Source of the DNA: Aureispira sp. CCB-E
GTDB lineage: Bacteria > Bacteroidota > Bacteroidia > Chitinophagales > Saprospiraceae
Assembly (NCBI RefSeq): GCF_031326345.1
Contig: NZ_CP133671.1
Location: forward strand, 7,041,501-7,105,500
Reading direction: 5' to 3'
DNA: 64,000 bases
Every line of letters starts with the position of its first letter. Positions within the stretch are counted from its first letter, which is position 1. Made by a program: the position numbers and the translations under genes. A model generated the notes under the pieces. The model saw only the letters and a list, made by a program, of their open reading frames with translations, searched no databases and was not told where the DNA came from. Shown here piece after piece: positions 19,692 to 31,672 of this stretch.

Positions 19692-20089
19692 AAGCAACTA
19701 CAAGCCTATAAGCCGAATCCTGTACTCTACAAAGAGTCTCTATCATTTATCTAGACCAATAGTCACCTATTGGCTCTATCTGCCTACCCTCCAGCTAGAG
19801 CGAGCAACCCTACGGACTCCGAAGAGCCCATGCTGGTATACATGGCATTTCAACTCGCAAGGTTTATCCGCTACTATTGTTACCAATAATAGCCGTGCGC
19901 TCTTACCGCACGTTTTCACCCTTACTTCCAATAAAATGAAAGCGGTTATTTTCTGCGACACTTTCTGTATTTTCTTATGCAAAAGCAAAAGAAAACCCCA
20001 TCCGTTAGATGGTGCGATGCTCTGCGTTGTTCAGACTTTCCTCATGTTTGAATAGCTCAAACCCGCGATAGAGCAGCTTGTAGTTGCGC
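19692..20089 (-). ncRNA. rnpB: RNase P RNA (class A)
   Basis: Read on the minus strand, the ~398-nt segment contains the universally conserved RNase P blocks. These are GAGGAAAGTC near the 5' end, GGGTGAAAACGTGCGGTAAG with AGAGCGCAC in the middle, and ACAGGATTCGGCTTATAGG near the 3' end. The P1 helix pairs perfectly over 12 bp: 20076-20087 with 19694-19705. It forms the catalytic subunit that matures tRNA 5' ends. A TATCTTTG promoter box lies just upstream (20093-20100). Confidence 0.96.
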
Positions 20090-23233: not shown

Positions 23234-24013
23234 ATGGCTCACGATAATATAAAAGTAAACCTTTTTGTTTGGAGACAAACAGGGGTGAATGATAAAAATC
23301 CAGGCATTAAATCTTATCCAGATCTTGAAATTAACACACACATGTCTTTCTTAGAGATGTTGGACGTTTTGAATGCACACATTATAGAAAACAAAGATAA
23401 ATACCCAGAAGGTCCTGTCGCTTTTGAGCACGATTGTCGAGAAGGGATTTGTGGTGCGTGTAGTTTGGTCATCAACGGCCGCCCTCATGGTCCTATGAAA
23501 GGAACAACTACGTGTCAACTACATATGCGCCATTTTAATAATGGTGATAATATCTATATTGAACCGTTTAAAGCTGCTGCATTTCCTGTTATAAAGGATT
23601 TAGTAGTGGATCGTAGTTCTTTTGACAAGATTATTCAAGCGGGTGGTTACGTTTCGGTTAATACAGGAGGTACACCAGATGGAAATGCCGTTCCTATTGG
23701 ACAAGGAATTGCGGCTGATGCCTTTGATGCTGCGGCTTGTATTGGATGTGGTGCTTGTGTTGCTGCTTGTCCGAATGCTGCTGCAATGTTGTTTACTTCT
23801 GCGAAGGTTTCTCACTTGGCTCTATTGCCACAAGGAAAGCCTGAAGCTGCTAAACGTGTCAAAAGAATGGTTAGCCAAATGGATAAAGAAGGATTTGGTT
23901 TGTGTTCTAATATTGGTGCCTGTGAAGCGGAATGTCCTAAAGAAATTTCTTTAGACTATATCGCACAAATGAATAGAGAATATTTCTCTGCAACTTTAAA
24001 AACAACAGAGTAA
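23234..24013 (+). CDS. sdhB: Succinate dehydrogenase/fumarate reductase iron-sulfur subunit
   Basis: The 259-residue subunit carries the [2Fe-2S] ligands in [11 protein letters not shown] with a distal C in TTTCQLH. The cysteines for the [4Fe-4S] and [3Fe-4S] clusters lie in [15 protein letters not shown] and [15 protein letters not shown]. It passes electrons from SdhA to the haem/quinone anchor. It is the last gene of sdhCAB and is followed by a short hairpin (24012-24028) and then a strong terminator. Confidence 0.96.
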
Positions 24014-24047
24014 ACGATAAAATCGTTTCTTGAAATAAAATTTATAC

Positions 24048-24079
24048 AGCAGCTAAGATATATCTTGGCTGCTTTTTTG
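24048..24079 (+). terminator. Intrinsic terminator of the sdh operon
   Basis: AGCAGCTAAGATA (24048-24060) pairs with 24061-24073 (13 bp, one G·T, apex bases unpaired in practice). It is followed by TTTTT. Confidence 0.85.
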
Positions 24080-24130
24080 TTTTAGGAAGTAATGCAACCA
24101 ATAGGAAGGAGCAAACCAAATTGGATAAAT

Positions 24131-24234
24131 AAAAAAAGAGAGCTGGGGATAGCTCTCTTTTACTGTTCTCTTCTCGCCAAAAGAGTTTTTCAATCAAAAT
24201 TAATCTAGCCGTATCTCTATTAATTATAAGATTG
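24131..24234 (-). ncRNA. Candidate small RNA, three-hairpin element (copy 1)
   Basis: On the minus strand there are three hairpins in series. Hairpin III pairs CAATC/GATTG and ATTAAT/ATTAAT around a loop containing AGATACGGC. Hairpin II has a 5-bp stem (24168-24172 with 24181-24185). Hairpin I is a perfect 10-bp stem with a 6-base loop (24135-24144 with 24151-24160), followed on this strand by a T run, so it should act as the terminator. The second copy at 24767-24867 keeps the same layout with different stem sequences. CCAATAGG occurs beyond the terminator in both copies (24098, 24745). Strand and function are inferred. Confidence 0.5.
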
Positions 24235-24317
24235 ATTAGTTTTTCCACACTTTCAACTAACTTAACAATAGTAATAAGAAAGAAAGTAATGAGGATATTA
24301 AACTTGTATAGTTCACT

Positions 24318-24458
24318 TAGGGCAGATACATAACAGCTTAGGGATGTTTTTTGATCTTTTGATATACTTGGGAGGATAACATTCCAATCAAAAAACGGCT
24401 GTTAAATAAAACCTAAAAAATGATTAAATAGATACTATTGAATCACTATCTGCCCCTA
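24318..24458. ncRNA. Candidate structured RNA (three-way junction-like)
   Basis: A closing stem of 9 perfect pairs (24320-24328 with 24447-24455), extended by two more beyond a bulge, encloses two arms. Arm 1 stacks three helices: 24332-24337 with 24398-24403, a perfect 10-bp helix 24346-24355 with 24387-24396, and a 5-bp apex. Arm 2 is a 10-position hairpin with one mismatch (24422-24431 with 24435-24444). The nested arrangement is hard to reach by chance even in AT-rich DNA. It could be transcribed from either strand. A 6S-like rod or a small non-autonomous element are the alternatives. Confidence 0.4.
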
Positions 24459-24555
24459 TGACAAGGAGTTGTTCAAAAGGTTGGAATTTTTTTTACTTTT
24501 TTTTTATTTTTTTTTCAAACCTTCATTTTAAGCATTAAAATGTCTGCTATGTAAC

Positions 24556-24592
24556 GTAGTTGCACTGCTTCTATATGGTTTGAACAAGCAAT
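24556..24592 (+). repeat. Dispersed intergenic repeat, partial copy
   Basis: TTGCACTGCTTCTATATGGTTTGAACAAG resembles the GTTCACTGCTACTGCGTGGTTTCAACGG part of the family when read in short blocks. It is degenerate. Confidence 0.4.
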
Positions 24593-24766
24593 TTGTTTAG
24601 GAATAAACTTATCTAAGGTCTTCTCAACAAATCATTTGAAAAAATAAGTTTCTGATAAAATTTTTTTATCCGTTCTACTTCAATTCTATATATTATAATG
24701 TAAATATTTCCAATGGTAAGGAAAGGTAGGCAAGTCTGCATTATCCAATAGGTCAAGTATAGATAT

Positions 24767-24867
24767 ACAAAAAGGGAAGATTCCTCCTAATCTTCCCTTA
24801 AGTTTCTTCGTTAATTTCGAAGAATTCCAATCGAAATTAATAGCGGTATCTATTTAATATTAGATTG
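24767..24867 (-). ncRNA. Candidate small RNA, three-hairpin element (copy 2)
   Basis: This has the same architecture as 24131-24234. Hairpin III pairs 24828-24832 with 24863-24867 and 24836-24840 with 24854-24858, around a loop with AGATACCGC. Hairpin II is a perfect 7-bp stem (24804-24810 with 24818-24824). Hairpin I is a perfect 11-bp stem with a 6-base loop (24772-24782 with 24789-24799), followed on the minus strand by TTTTTG. Stem sequences of I and II differ from copy 1 yet still pair, which is covariation at the level of two copies. Confidence 0.5.
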
Positions 24868-25245
24868 AATATACATATAGTATTATTTTAGCACATAGGG
24901 ATAAACCCTCTTACTACTAGACGACAAATCTCATTTTGAAATGGTTGCATGAGTTGAAAAAATTTTTTGATTTATTTTTTCTTGCCATCTGTTATCAATA
25001 ACGACTGCAAATTTATTTTATTTTCCTTGGGAGTCAAAATTTATTTCATTCATTATTATAATTTTAATATTTCTTAATATTTCGTTTACATATCCAGTCA
25101 TTACTATCATTTCTAGTATGTAGTCCTGTATATAAATTTTAGCCAAAATATTTACTTATTTCTCCTCTGTAGATCAATCTATTGGAGCAATGGCAAACAA
25201 AGCTCAAGCTCTTGACAAAAAACAAGCCACAAAATAGCATCTAAA

Positions 25246-25309: not shown

Positions 25310-28300
25310 TTACTCTACTCGTATTTTTCTTGTAAAACTCGTATTATTACTGCTTACTCTGATAAAGTAAATTCCCGATACATAACGATTCATATCAAAA
25401 TCTATTTCATGGTAAGCATTGGATGTCATTGGTGCACTATACGACTCAACTATTTGCCCCAAAGCGGTTATAACTTCAATTTGATAACGATCATCTTTCG
25501 AAATTTGAAGGTATACCGTACTACTTCCTTCGTGCAATACTGTTGGGAACAGTTGCTTCACCAACGGTGCTTCTACTGTTAGCGACCTTACTTCTGTATA
25601 AGTAGATGTCCCATCAAAATCTACTTGTTTTAATCGGAAGTAATGCACTCCTGATATTAAATTAGGTACTTTATAATCATAATTTTGCGCTGTAGTCGTT
25701 GTTCCTGCTCCATTAACATATCCAATTTGATTAAATTCTGGTGCACCAGTACTAGGCAGTGCATGTTCCACTTCGTAACCTGCATTATTCAACTCACTTG
25801 ATGTTGCCCAATTTAACACACCTGTATTTTTACCTTCTAGTTTTGCCGTAAAATACAACAACTCTACAGGCAATGGATCATTCATCAAGAATTGATAATC
25901 CTCCACCTCTCCATTCGTACGTGCCCCTTGAAAGTCTACAGCTCCTAATGGATTGTCATCTAAACGAATTCGGATATTCACCAAGTTTGTTGCAACACTG
26001 GCTGGAGAAGTCACAACGACTGTTGTTGTAAATGGTCCTCCTGGCACCGCTACTGTTCCTGAATAAAAATCGTCATAAACACCATCTGCATTCCAATCAA
26101 TCCACATTCCATACGAAACATTATCTGCCACAACTGAATTTAAATCTAAATCTACATTATACACCGTTGAAGGCATCACCGTCCTTGGAAAAGCACCAGG
26201 TGTATTCGTTCCCAATTCCATTCCATCATCAAAACTATCACCATTCACGCCTAAAGCGTTGTTTTCAAAGTCGGTATTGGTTCCCAACCAAACATCTGTT
26301 GTTCCATCCAATACATTATCACTATTCGCATCTCTAATTGCTCGATGATACACTTCTCCATATATTGCTGGAGCATCTCCATAATCTTTATTGACATCTA
26401 GTATTGTAATGTAAACTGTTGCAGTATCACATACTTGAGGGCTTCCATTGTCACATACACTGTATACAAATTCATCGTTGCCACTAAAGTTAGGATTGGT
26501 TGGCGTATAACTATATGTTCCATCTGGATTTAAGGTCAAACTACCGTTGGTCGGACCTGTCACTAATGACACCCCACCAACTTGATTATCGCCCTCTACA
26601 TCCGTATCGTTTGTCAAAACATTATCATTTAATGTTGTTCCTTTGTCTACAAACTCTTCATCATCTATCGCATTGGTACTGTTGTACAATCTTGGCAAAA
26701 CGTCAATGGTTACCGTTGTTTGTTCGCAGGTGATGGGTGCTCCGTCATCACAAGCCGTGTAAATATATTCTACCACACCTATGAATCCAGCAACAGGATT
26801 AAATGTATACGTTCCATTCGCATTCTGAACCAAAGTTCCTGCATTTGTAACCGGATTTCCATTTTTGTCAATTCCTCCGATCGTGGTTAACGTACTTAAA
26901 CCTACAGTAGCATCAACAACGCCATCACCGTCTGTATCTGTTTGAATGTTTCCTGTTACCAAAATATTATCACCATCTGGGTCATTGTCATTTGATAACA
27001 CTTGACCATTTACTGCTATGTTATCATACGTTGTATTGACATCTGGTGCTAAAGCCAATTCTCCATTGTCTGTCGTTGGAGCAGGTTCTACATCAATAGT
27101 TACTTTGGCTTCTGTACAAGCTTGCGGTTGTCCATTGTCACAAATATCATATAAATAGGTCACCTCTCCAACAAAACCTGTCGTTGGTACAAAGGTATAT
27201 GTTCCATTCGCATTTTGAGTCAAGGTTCCTGCATTTGCATTGGGAGTACCATCTTCATTAATTCCACCAACTGTTGTTCCTACTCCCAACCCAATTACTG
27301 TTTCTGGAGTACCATCACCATTCGCATCAATCTCAACTCCTGTCAATGTTTGATTATCTTCTTCTTGATCGTAATCATTGGTTAAGACATTACCAACAAT
27401 GGTTACATTGGTTGGTGTTGTGTTAATATCATTGGTCGCATACGTTGTATTGCCCTCTCTCCAATCACGCTCAACTGTAATCTCATTTTTAGCATCTGGA
27501 TGAGAGTTTGGATTCAAACCAATATTAGTTGCATTGGTATTCGCTGTATTATTATCATAACCATCCAACAAGCCGTCACCATCTACATCAGCCGTACCAC
27601 CTGATAAGCCTGTATTCGCATTTGGACTATCGGCACCATTTACAACACCATCGCCATTGGTGTCGTGCCCTTCAATAACATCTGGAATACCATCATTATC
27701 AGTATCCAAATCTAGATAATCTGGATTATCTGCTGCACCATCTTGATTATTGGGTATAATACCAGAACCCGCCCCTCCAAATATCGCATCGTTGCTATCA
27801 TAAGCATCGTCTATCCCATCTCCATCCGTATCATTATTATCTGGCGCAATGTAAGCACTAGTTGCTTGCCCTTCTGTATTATCAACAATACCATCATTGT
27901 CCGCATCTATGTCCAAGAAGTTATAATTGTTATCACCATCTTGGTTGTCATTTGGATAGCTATTCGGTGCACCGTCACCATCCGTATCAGCTCCTGTTCG
28001 AGTAGTCGCATTCGCACTATTGGCTCCATTCGTATCGGTTCCTACTGCCAATGCATTGGTTGGATCACCATCAACCACATCATTAAAGCCATCTCCATCG
28101 GCATCGGCATAAGCATCTTCTTGACCATCTCTATTCGCATCTGTTCCGCCTGCTTCTTCGATATCCAAAATACCATCGTTGTCGGCATCCAAATCCAAAT
28201 GATTGTATACATTATCCCCATCCAAATCACCATTAGGCATACTATTGGGATTTCCATCACCATCAGTATCTGCACCCGTTAATAACAAGGCATCTGATGT

Positions 28301-31300
28301 ATTCGCTCCATTCGTATCGGTTCCTAATGCTAAAGCATTGGTTGGGTCACCGTCTACCACATCATTATAACCATCTCTATCATTATCTATATAACCATCC
28401 GCACGTCCATCGCCATTCGCATCGGTACCCCCTACTTCTACTACATCTGGAATGCCATCGTTATCCGCATCTAAATCTAATTGATCTAAAATACCATCAC
28501 CGTCAGTATCTCCTGTTGGGTAATCTTCTGGTGTACCATCTCCATTGGTATCTTCACCCGTCAACTGCAATGCATTTGATGTGTTCGCTCCATTCGTATC
28601 GGTTCCTACCGCTAAAGCATTGGTTGGGTCACCGTCTACCACATCGTTATAACCATCTCTATCATTATCTATATAACCATCCGCACGTCCATCACCATTC
28701 ACATCGGTTCCACCAGCTTCTACTACATCTGGAATGCCATCGTTATCCGCATCTAAATCTAGTTGATCTAAAATGCCATCTCTATCGGTATCTCCTTCAG
28801 GATAACTATCCGCACGCCCGTCCCCATTACCATCTGCTTCTGTCAGTTGTAGAGCGTCAGCACTATTTTCTGGTATGCCATCATTTCCTACATCGCCATC
28901 TACCACATCGTTATAACCGTCATTATCCACATCTACATAATTATCCACACGTCCATCACCATTTTCATCAGTACCTCCTGCTTCCACCACATCTGGAATG
29001 CCATCGTTATCCGCATCTAAATCTAAATGATCTAAAATACCATCTCTATCGGTATCATTATTGGGATAGCTATCAGGAATACCATCTGAATTGCCATCTG
29101 AATTGGTAATAATCAATACATCCACAAGATTTTCTGAAGTACCATCATTGCCAACATCCCCATCTACCACATCATTCCATCCATCTCCGTCAGTATCAGT
29201 ATAATTATCAATACGTCCATCACCATTGACATCGGTACCTCCTGCTTCTACAATATCTGGAATTCCATCATTATCCGCATCTAAGTCTAAATAATCAGGT
29301 AATAAATCTCCATCTGTATTTGTAACTGCTATGTCGTTTCCTGCTGATCCAACGCCTGGAATTTGATAATTTGCTTCTACATTTGATATACAAGAAGAAG
29401 CCGTTGCACAGAAATTAGGATCTACATCTGCGTCTGCCTGAAAATCAATCACAACAGTTCCATCGTTATTCCACAAATTCCAGTTTGCTTGAGAGATTAC
29501 AACGCTAAAATTCATTGGAGGGTTAGAACAATCTGCATAAGCACTATTATCTGAATTGGTTCTATTAAATGTACCCAAATTGACACCACCTTCTCCAGTT
29601 AATGTAAATTCAGCACCATTAAAACCATAAGCTCCAAATACAGAGAATGACAATGTAACATTACCTACCGCATCGGTTGTACCAGATGCAAATGAAATAG
29701 TATGTGCTGGTGAAACTACTGTCTGGCAATCATCTGCGGATGTATTGGTTACATTTGTAGTTCCAGCCACGCTTGAATCATACAAATCAATTAAACCATC
29801 ATTATCCGCATCGGTTGTGCCATCGACCAATCCATTTCCGTCCGTATCAACGCCTCCTGCCTCTACAATGTCAGAAATACCATCATTGTCAGAATCCAAA
29901 TCATACGAATTGATAACAGCATCCCCATCCGCATCAAAATTATCATTGACACCATCCATATTGGCATCTACAAATCCAGGAAAATCAGGATCCAAATAGT
30001 TTGGAATACCATCCCCATCAGCATCTAACAAAGGATCGGTTGGATGTTCAACTAAATCGGGTATACCATCATTATCATCGTCTATGTCTATATTGTCTGC
30101 AATACCATCTCCATCTTGATCACAGTCGGGTGTCGTTCTAGGAAAAGGAGCAGAAGATACATCATAAGACCAAAACCATGTATTAATTGTTCTAGCATTT
30201 CCAAAGTCATCACATAGGGCTGCTGTTGTAGAGCCTCTTCCTGCTGTTGGAGCGGGTATTGCAAATGTTGCACTACCATCCCAAGCATGTGCTGGACCAA
30301 AAACACCTTCTAGCATATTTGTTGTCGCAACTCCTGCCCCTGTTGTATTATGTGTTGCATTAACACTACAATTCCCCACATTTCCTAAATTTGTATCGTC
30401 CCAATATAGCTTTCTTGGTCCCAAAGCTGGGAAAAATGCTGTTACAGAAAAACCGTTTCCATTTAACTCTGCATCATGCATTGGAATGTTTGTTCGACCT
30501 CGAAATAATGTAGCAGTTACCAAGAAGTTAACATTCCCTGCAACTGGATTCCCTTGTCCATCTAAACCATCCCAACTTAAGACATGGTTGCCAGCTACCA
30601 AGTCATATAACTCTAAGACTCTATCTGAGGTGCCTGCTTGATAGCCGACAACACCATTTAAATCCAATAGGATAGCAACATCTCCTGGATCAGGAATAAA
30701 CAAAGGAATAAAATAATCTCCTGGGCAGCCATATACGTTACTAGGAATTGCTGGCGCATTGGAAGGCGGTGCCACTTTGAAAATATTGGTGTCTGGAATA
30801 GATAAAAAGATAGGATAACCTGTTGGCAAGGTTGGTGCATTGGCTCCTGTATAAGTAGATATTCTATCTGTCAAAAAGTTACCTCCGTTTGTAACTCCTG
30901 GTTTGTTCATTGCCAATACATAACGAAATGGTTGAAAACCAGGCTCAAAATTCATACGAACAACCGAACTATCCTCTGTATAAGCATAATAATCGCCTTC
31001 AAAAGAAAAATTGATCGCAGGAGTAAAATTAGCCGACAATGGATTGTAAGTAATAAATCCCCACTGTTGACAATTCAAACGACCTCTATAAGTTGTATTG
31101 TTTGTTTCACCTACTGTAAAATCAAAAAATGGAAAGAAAATTTCATCATTAGACGCACTTACTCCTGCGTCATTACTTCTATATAGCTCTATTACATAAT
31201 CCCCGTTTTGGGTCGGGTTGAATAGAATGGGGGTATACCCCGTAGGGTTCAAACCTCCAATATTAGGTCCAGCAACTGCCTGAGCATAGTTAGGAATAAA

Positions 31301-31672
31301 CCCAGTACCTGCTGTTGGAATAGGAGTTGCGGGAACTACCTCCGCACCTGTCGGGTCTAAAATACGATAAAAACCATTGGTTGACGGTCCAGCACCACCT
31401 ACCCGTTGAAAAGGGTTTAATCCAAAGTAAATGTTTTCGATCGTGTGATTTAAAATAGATATTTTCAATCTATTATCGGCAGGAGCCGCTCGATAGGTTC
31501 CTATTGTAAGATTGGGACTAACGACTAGAGCCGTTCCGTTTCCTGCGTTGGGCATTACTTGAGCAGTACCTTCTGCATTTAGTTGCGTTGTTCCTAAAAG
31601 GAATAGGGATATTACCCATAACAATTCAAGGCATCTACAATGCCTTTGAACAAAGTGTAATTGTGTTTGCAT
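25310..31672 (-). CDS. Giant secreted adhesin-like protein with TSP3 calcium-binding repeats, Ig-like and GEVED domains, T9SS signal
   Basis: The 2,120-residue protein has a signal peptide (hydrophobic [17 protein letters not shown]). After an N-terminal beta-rich region come thrombospondin-type-3 repeats with DxDxDGxxD calcium loops, in two blocks (about 510-630 and 790-1370). The second block contains five near-identical 88-94-residue units ([18 protein letters not shown]). Three Ig-like tandem domains follow (about 1410-1760; [38 protein letters not shown]). A GEVED domain ([20 protein letters not shown]) lies at about 1770-1930. The C-terminus ends in a T9SS type A signal ([13 protein letters not shown]). 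Strong calcium binding, stiff rod architecture and an adhesive surface role are inferred. It is monocistronic. Confidence 0.9.
27890..29290 (-). repeat. In-gene tandem repeat, five units of 264-282 bp
   Basis: Copies of the segment encoding LDADNDGI recur at about 29270, 29008, 28744, 28463, 28180 and 27898. The spacing is 264 bp for the first units and 282 bp for the later ones, which gain six residues ([14 protein letters not shown]). Units 3 and 4 are the most alike, pointing to recent duplication or gene conversion. Confidence 0.8.

Follow-up and report, generated by a model that had tools for sequence, protein, structure and literature searches.

The minus strand of the window (the whole stretch of 64,000 nucleotides from Aureispira sp. 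CCB-E analyzed here) carries a conserved cassette that we read, from its sequence, as two adjacent small RNA (sRNA) genes on the same strand, RNA2 (~150 nt) and RNA1 (~325 nt). The explanation that we favor, with moderate confidence, is that both genes have ECF-like promoters, that their products would act as base-pairing regulators, and that they would belong to an ECF/T9SS-linked regulon. The features are listed below, all on the minus strand. G000 is the own genome, and G001 to G008 are the other genomes of the genus; G002 is assigned to the species of the window.

24923..24947, minus strand: promoter-like motif of RNA2, CAACCATTTCAAAATGAGATTTGTC, aligned in G000, G001, G005, G006, and G008.
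24769..24916, minus strand: RNA2, predicted to be ~148 nt, with copy 2 as its 3′ part.
24897..24909, minus strand: 5′ hairpin of RNA2, from the folds.
24869-24826, minus strand: copy 2 hairpin III, apical loop AUACCG, a module in common with copy 1.
24824-24804, minus strand: copy 2 hairpin II, 7 pairs and a 7-nt loop.
24799-24772, minus strand: copy 2 hairpin I, intrinsic terminator, loop AGGAGG, T tail reaching 24769.
24483..24515, minus strand: A-rich tract directly upstream of the RNA1 motif, by its sequence a possible UP element.
24460..24483, minus strand: promoter-like motif of RNA1, CAACCTTTTGAACAACTCCTTGTC, aligned in G000, G001, G005, G006, and G008.
24131..24455, minus strand: RNA1, predicted to be ~325 nt, with copy 1 as its 3′ part.
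24303..24455, minus strand: 5′ domain of RNA1 (the "middle"), from folds and alignment.
24447-24455 and 24320-24328, minus strand: arms of the RNA1 5′ domain.
24367-24379, minus strand: C-rich UCCUCC stretch of the RNA1 5′ domain.
24303-24321, minus strand: conserved CCTAARTGAAYTRTAHAAG of the RNA1 5′ domain.
24235-24190, minus strand: copy 1 hairpin III, apical loop AUACGG.
24185-24168, minus strand: copy 1 hairpin II, CTCTTTTGGCGAGAAGAG, almost invariant across 6 genomes.
24161-24134, minus strand: copy 1 hairpin I, intrinsic terminator, loop AUCCCC, T tail reaching 24131.

The first-pass annotation had described three hairpins that occur twice in the same order. Both segments are found on the minus strand (copy 1, 24237-24128; copy 2, 24869-24764), each consisting of three hairpins in the order III-II-I with the terminator last. 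Folded as single strands, both are better than dinucleotide shuffles, with z scores of −4.18 for copy 1 (none of 200 shuffles equally good) and −3.26 for copy 2 (1 of 200). In both copies, hairpin I, described earlier as 10-11 bp with a 6-base loop and minus-strand T residues, is a stem of 11 pairs closed by a 6-base loop and followed, on the minus strand, by a tail rich in T. The T tail is present on that strand in all 11 aligned sequences. A terminator scan of 24000-25000 gives six terminator-like sites against 0.2 expected. These six come from three hairpins, counted on a single strand or on both, and one of the three belongs to sdh itself.

Among the six sequences of the copy-1 family, compensatory changes are observed in 5 of the 11 terminator pairs and in 1 of the 6 outer pairs of hairpin III. 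The terminator loop, RUCCCC, is constant in these sequences while its stem varies, and hairpin II (CTCTTTTGGCGARRAGAG) is close to invariant. The loop AUACGG of hairpin III is not retained in G005 and G006. With a test structure derived from the same six sequences, the covariation score and the counts of changes on both sides exceed those of shuffles (0-1 of 500 shuffles reach them), while the measure of further pair types does not (500 of 500). The conserved structure lies outside protein genes, as would be expected of a free-standing sRNA gene.

The relationship between the two copies is restricted to one module. Hairpin III gives a Smith-Waterman score of 27.5 between the copies, against a shuffled mean of 10.6, and none of 2000 shuffles is as high; this agrees with its earlier description as preserved. 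Likewise, no shuffled pair of 2000 reaches the similarity of the whole of copy 1 to the whole of copy 2. For hairpin II plus the terminator, no homology between the copies is detectable (354 of 2000 shuffles as good), and these parts fail to align in register in the two-copy alignments A3 and A4. The differences between the copies in hairpins I and II, earlier taken as compensatory, cannot be counted as compensatory changes between copies, because the sequences compared have no detectable homology. As judged from the sequences, the copies thus have the ~45-nt hairpin III in common by descent, the rest being a common layout, and the module in RNA1 and RNA2 probably arose by an old duplication. 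The homology rests on the shuffle test and not on the models R1 and R2, because the cross-match scores (R2 on copy 2, 41-50 bits; R1 on copy 1, 32-40 bits) fall within, or only just above, the range of matches outside the genus. The string CCAATAGG, reported earlier as conserved beyond the terminator, was rejected as a conserved element; it occurs five times within the window (either strand) and in none of the seven relative loci checked.

The order along the cassette is copy 2, middle, copy 1. The middle (24455-24303) is conserved, and the terminator scan of 24000-25000 detects no terminator at its end; the middle and copy 1 are therefore read as one RNA of ~325 nt. No promoter-like motif lies directly before copy 1, which looks like the 3′ terminal part of this longer RNA. 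The 5′ end of RNA1 was placed by us 4 nt past TTGTC, and that of RNA2 6 nt past it. The predicted length of RNA1 is 319 nt in G001, 287 nt in G005, and 229 nt in G006, while RNA2, consisting of copy 2 and the 5′ hairpin, is predicted to be 144-151 nt across genomes. A 5′ hairpin of different sequence is also predicted for RNA2 of G001, G005, and G006. The earlier suggestion of minus-strand sRNA genes with terminators of their own is strengthened by conservation in the genus, by the promoter-like motif, and by the absence of an Rfam match; it is amended for copy 1, the apparent tail of a ~325-nt RNA.

One or both copies are present in 8 of the 9 same-genus genomes, G007 having neither. Copy 1 is found in seven (G000, G001, G002, G004, G005, G006, and G008), as is copy 2 (G000, G001, G002, G003, G005, G006, and G008); the G004 contig stops just beyond copy 1, so that copy 2 is not assessable there. 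An exact-pattern contig scan with the copy-2 hairpin, in which records very near the window may be excluded, gave four contigs, three labeled as Aureispira and one as a Saprospiraceae bacterium. The element does not look like a dispersed REP-like repeat, which would have many copies per genome: at E ≤ 0.1, R1 and R2 each match these two loci, and no others, in the own genome. Outside the genus, no convincing member was found with R1 over 148 relatives or with R2 over 60, so that the covariance search gives copies within the genus, covarying in the copy-1 family, and none convincing beyond it. The weak matches there are those of R2 to G111 (E 7e-5, 40.2 bits), G101 (0.0019), G019 (0.012), G107 (0.032), G029 (0.071), and G020 (0.081), and of R1 to G065 (0.040), G015 (0.082), and G083 (0.089). 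In the five alignments inspected (G111, G101, G019, G107, and G065), the common part is chiefly the T-tailed hairpin, and the G111 match is, by eye, the end of a reading frame. The G019 match (L066) retains the AUCCCC terminator loop, and the G107 match (L067) has a hairpin-II-like UCUUUAGACGAGAAGA; from these sequences, the two are possible distant relatives.

The location after the sdh operon, pointed out earlier, is correct for five genomes, in which sdhB adjoins the element (G000, G001, G002, G004, and G008). In G003, G005, and G006, sdhB and the element are on separate contigs with other neighbors; the adjacency is thus incidental, and sdh does not belong to the system.

A promoter-like motif, CAAC[CT][AT]TTT-N10/11-TTGTC, is located upstream of the middle (RNA1) and of copy 2 (RNA2). 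It precedes both units in all five genomes aligned (G000, G001, G005, G006, and G008). Its AAC and GTC boxes are 17-18 nt apart, a spacing that suits the −35 and −10 elements of an ECF sigma-factor promoter, and in sequence the motif looks like such a pair. The frequency of sites by itself proves nothing, because the strict pattern has 7 sites in the own genome and the reversed-pattern control has 8. All seven strict sites are outside open reading frames (ORFs) of at least 100 aa. In G001, G005, and G006 combined, there are 19 strict sites against 6 for the control, and 15 of the 18 assessed are outside ORFs of at least 100 aa; some sites of these relatives sit in ORFs or before ordinary non-secreted genes (L078 and L089). 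Three own-genome sites align with G001 sites before what are, by eye, apparently the same genes (L038/L094, L041/L084, and L042/L087). A looser pattern was dropped: it gives 18 sites in the own genome against 15 for the control, and of the 11 extra sites nine are in ORFs and two outside. An ECF gene near the cassette is seen solely in G005 and G006. One motif-like string is also found, unchanged, at four positions on C1 and C2 of G000 (L101, L102, L105, and L107), each time in an ORF of 356 aa; this is probably an insertion sequence.

The inverted repeat in 24466-24303 should be noted. It consists of CTTGTCATAG at the RNA1 motif and CTATACAAG at 24303-24311, and with it the arms that close RNA1 extend into what is presumed to be the −10 box. 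Such a repeat would be unexpected if TTGTC serves as a −10 box outside the transcript, and it counts against the explanation that we favor.

Just upstream of RNA2, on the minus strand, is the gene (25310-31672) of a cadherin/Ig-like protein of 2120 aa that carries a tail for T9SS sorting (TIGR04183, 33.7 bits). The hairpins might be terminators or 3′ UTR ends of neighboring mRNAs, that of this T9SS adhesin gene (31672-25310) in the case of copy 2, without any free-standing RNA gene; we regard this as possible, if doubtful. Such an origin is compatible with the terminator hairpins alone scoring up to 40 bits in the models outside the genus, and with G003, where a solitary copy 2 starts ~30 nt past the stop codon of an alpha/beta-hydrolase-like gene and no promoter-like motif is seen ahead of it. 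The unit can thus exist as a 3′ end. However, hairpin III and the loops are preserved in sequence, beyond mere pairing, the neighboring genes vary between genomes, promoter-like motifs lie ahead of the units, and the adhesin stop at 25310 is ~440 nt ahead of hairpin III. These observations argue against such an origin.

The further sites of the motif would connect the two putative genes with the envelope. Two of the seven strict own-genome sites are those of RNA1 and RNA2, and the other five lie before other genes or loci. One precedes porU, which encodes the T9SS sortase (NF033707, 1259 bits). Another lies before a gene for a protein with Por_Secre_tail, a third before a gene pair whose second member carries Por_Secre_tail, and a fourth before the gene of a 1006-aa protein with no family match and, by eye, a signal-peptide-like start. 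The fifth belongs to a third sRNA-like locus (L042; G000:C1:6001471-6001495, minus strand), with a counterpart, L087, in G001. This locus is ~190 nt long, has a terminator at its end, and lies ahead of a DUF2490 gene; its 3′ half, terminator included, is strongly conserved between G000 and G001. Two looser sites are found before a TonB-dependent receptor and before a T9SS-sorted protein, part of which is protease-like. The RNAs and the envelope and secretion genes (for PorU, T9SS-sorted, and signal-peptide-like proteins) thus have a promoter-like motif in common.

Rfam 15 gives no match at gathering for the locus, in accordance with the earlier remark that no known RNA family was recognized. 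The 19 local matches up to E 10 are all under the gathering scores of their families, the best being mir-46 (E 0.033, 24.6 bits against a gathering score of 44.7). The sole match at gathering in the whole window is an RNase P RNA (bacterial class A; 19693-20084, minus strand; 244.9 bits). No Aureispira sRNA was found in the literature searched, and none is named among the matches listed. The two genes are apparently uncatalogued, a new pair of a known kind of sRNA. An RNA that titrates CsrA through its GGA loops was considered and rejected: the CsrA family (PF02599) is found in none of 6 genomes, against 3 of 14 in the control.

The G-rich and C-rich loops raise the question of whether RNA1 and RNA2 pair with each other. 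RNA2 could be a sponge whose GGAGGA terminator loop titrates the regulator RNA1 through its C-rich loop. GGAGGA is preserved in all six copy-2 sequences read, and the perfectly complementary UCCUCC is present in the RNA1 5′ domain of G000, G001, and G008. The corresponding CUCCCC or UUCCCC in G005 and G006 would pair imperfectly, and such a regulator-sponge pair is rather unlikely.

That RNA1 encodes a small peptide beginning at the conserved CCTAARTGAA (24303-24321) is quite unlikely. An ATG or GTG is located at the same place in all five genomes, opening an ORF of 11-35 codons, but the peptides are unrelated past about six codons and several differences hit second codon positions. The peptide of G000 is hydrophobic. 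It is very unlikely that the locus is a known RNA, for instance 6S, in divergent form: one could hide here, with the Rfam 6S model (RF00013) finding none in 9 same-genus genomes (control, 8 of 14) and the RNA1 5′ domain folding with closing arms, yet no Rfam match reaches gathering and the length of that domain is highly variable (RNA1, 229-325 nt).

Two adjacent sRNA genes under ECF-like promoters are the reading with which we continue. RNA2 and RNA1 would each begin just past the CAACC-N-TTGTC motif and end at their own intrinsic terminator. Since the motif also lies before porU, before genes for secreted or T9SS-sorted proteins, and at the third sRNA-like locus, RNA1 and RNA2 probably form the RNA branch of an ECF regulon linked to the envelope and the T9SS. 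We infer that they are most likely made together with the T9SS and envelope genes and regulate mRNAs by base-pairing. Candidate pairing loops are GGAGG and AUACCG in RNA2, and UCCCC, GGCG, and, in part of the genus, AUACGG in RNA1. To our knowledge, Bacteroidota are generally held to lack Hfq, and we know of few regulatory RNAs in this phylum whose regulon is known. In enterobacteria, the sigmaE-dependent sRNAs MicA and RybB are transcribed from a promoter of the envelope-stress ECF sigma factor, end at intrinsic terminators, and act by pairing with mRNAs. The putative Aureispira sRNAs would resemble them in being made from an ECF promoter and in ending at intrinsic terminators, a likeness for which no sequence relation is claimed.

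A parallel in arrangement, compared by description, is motif SM6 of Flavobacterium psychrophilum, which its authors assign to an ECF sigma factor (PMC9723704). The description given there characterizes SM6 by its −10 box, CGT, and places its sites before porU, gldN, an ECF/anti-sigma pair, and the putative regulatory RNA Rfp11. In both organisms, a motif of ECF type, or in Aureispira of ECF-like appearance, precedes porU, other T9SS genes, and a structured putative RNA. In contrast to the CGT box of SM6 in that description, most Aureispira sites are TTGTCAT or similar, and in the cassette only the copy-2 sites are TTGTCGT. Two, perhaps three, Aureispira RNAs have the motif in common, unlike what is described for F. 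psychrophilum (PMC9723704). The presence of porU and the sRNAs in the same company is, by this analogy, the strongest hint of function in Aureispira. In Porphyromonas gingivalis, PorXY-SigP likewise places T9SS genes under an ECF sigma factor, while the part of that account considered here mentions no sRNA (PMC4800418).

More speculatively, and with only a small chance of being right in full, Aureispira might possess an ECF regulon for the T9SS and envelope that includes several dedicated RNAs (RNA1, RNA2, and the third RNA at G000:C1:6001471). Paired through complementary G-rich and C-rich loops, these RNAs would hold one another in check as well as repress the mRNAs of cargo proteins, and the system would be a counterpart of sigmaE-MicA/RybB that evolved independently. 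A promoter motif that links two or three uncatalogued RNAs with porU and T9SS cargo would give a handle on the control of surface protein export in these marine bacteria. It would suggest that the combination reported in F. psychrophilum, an ECF-type motif with porU and an sRNA, extends more widely across the phylum, and the RNAs may help tune what an Aureispira cell puts on its surface.
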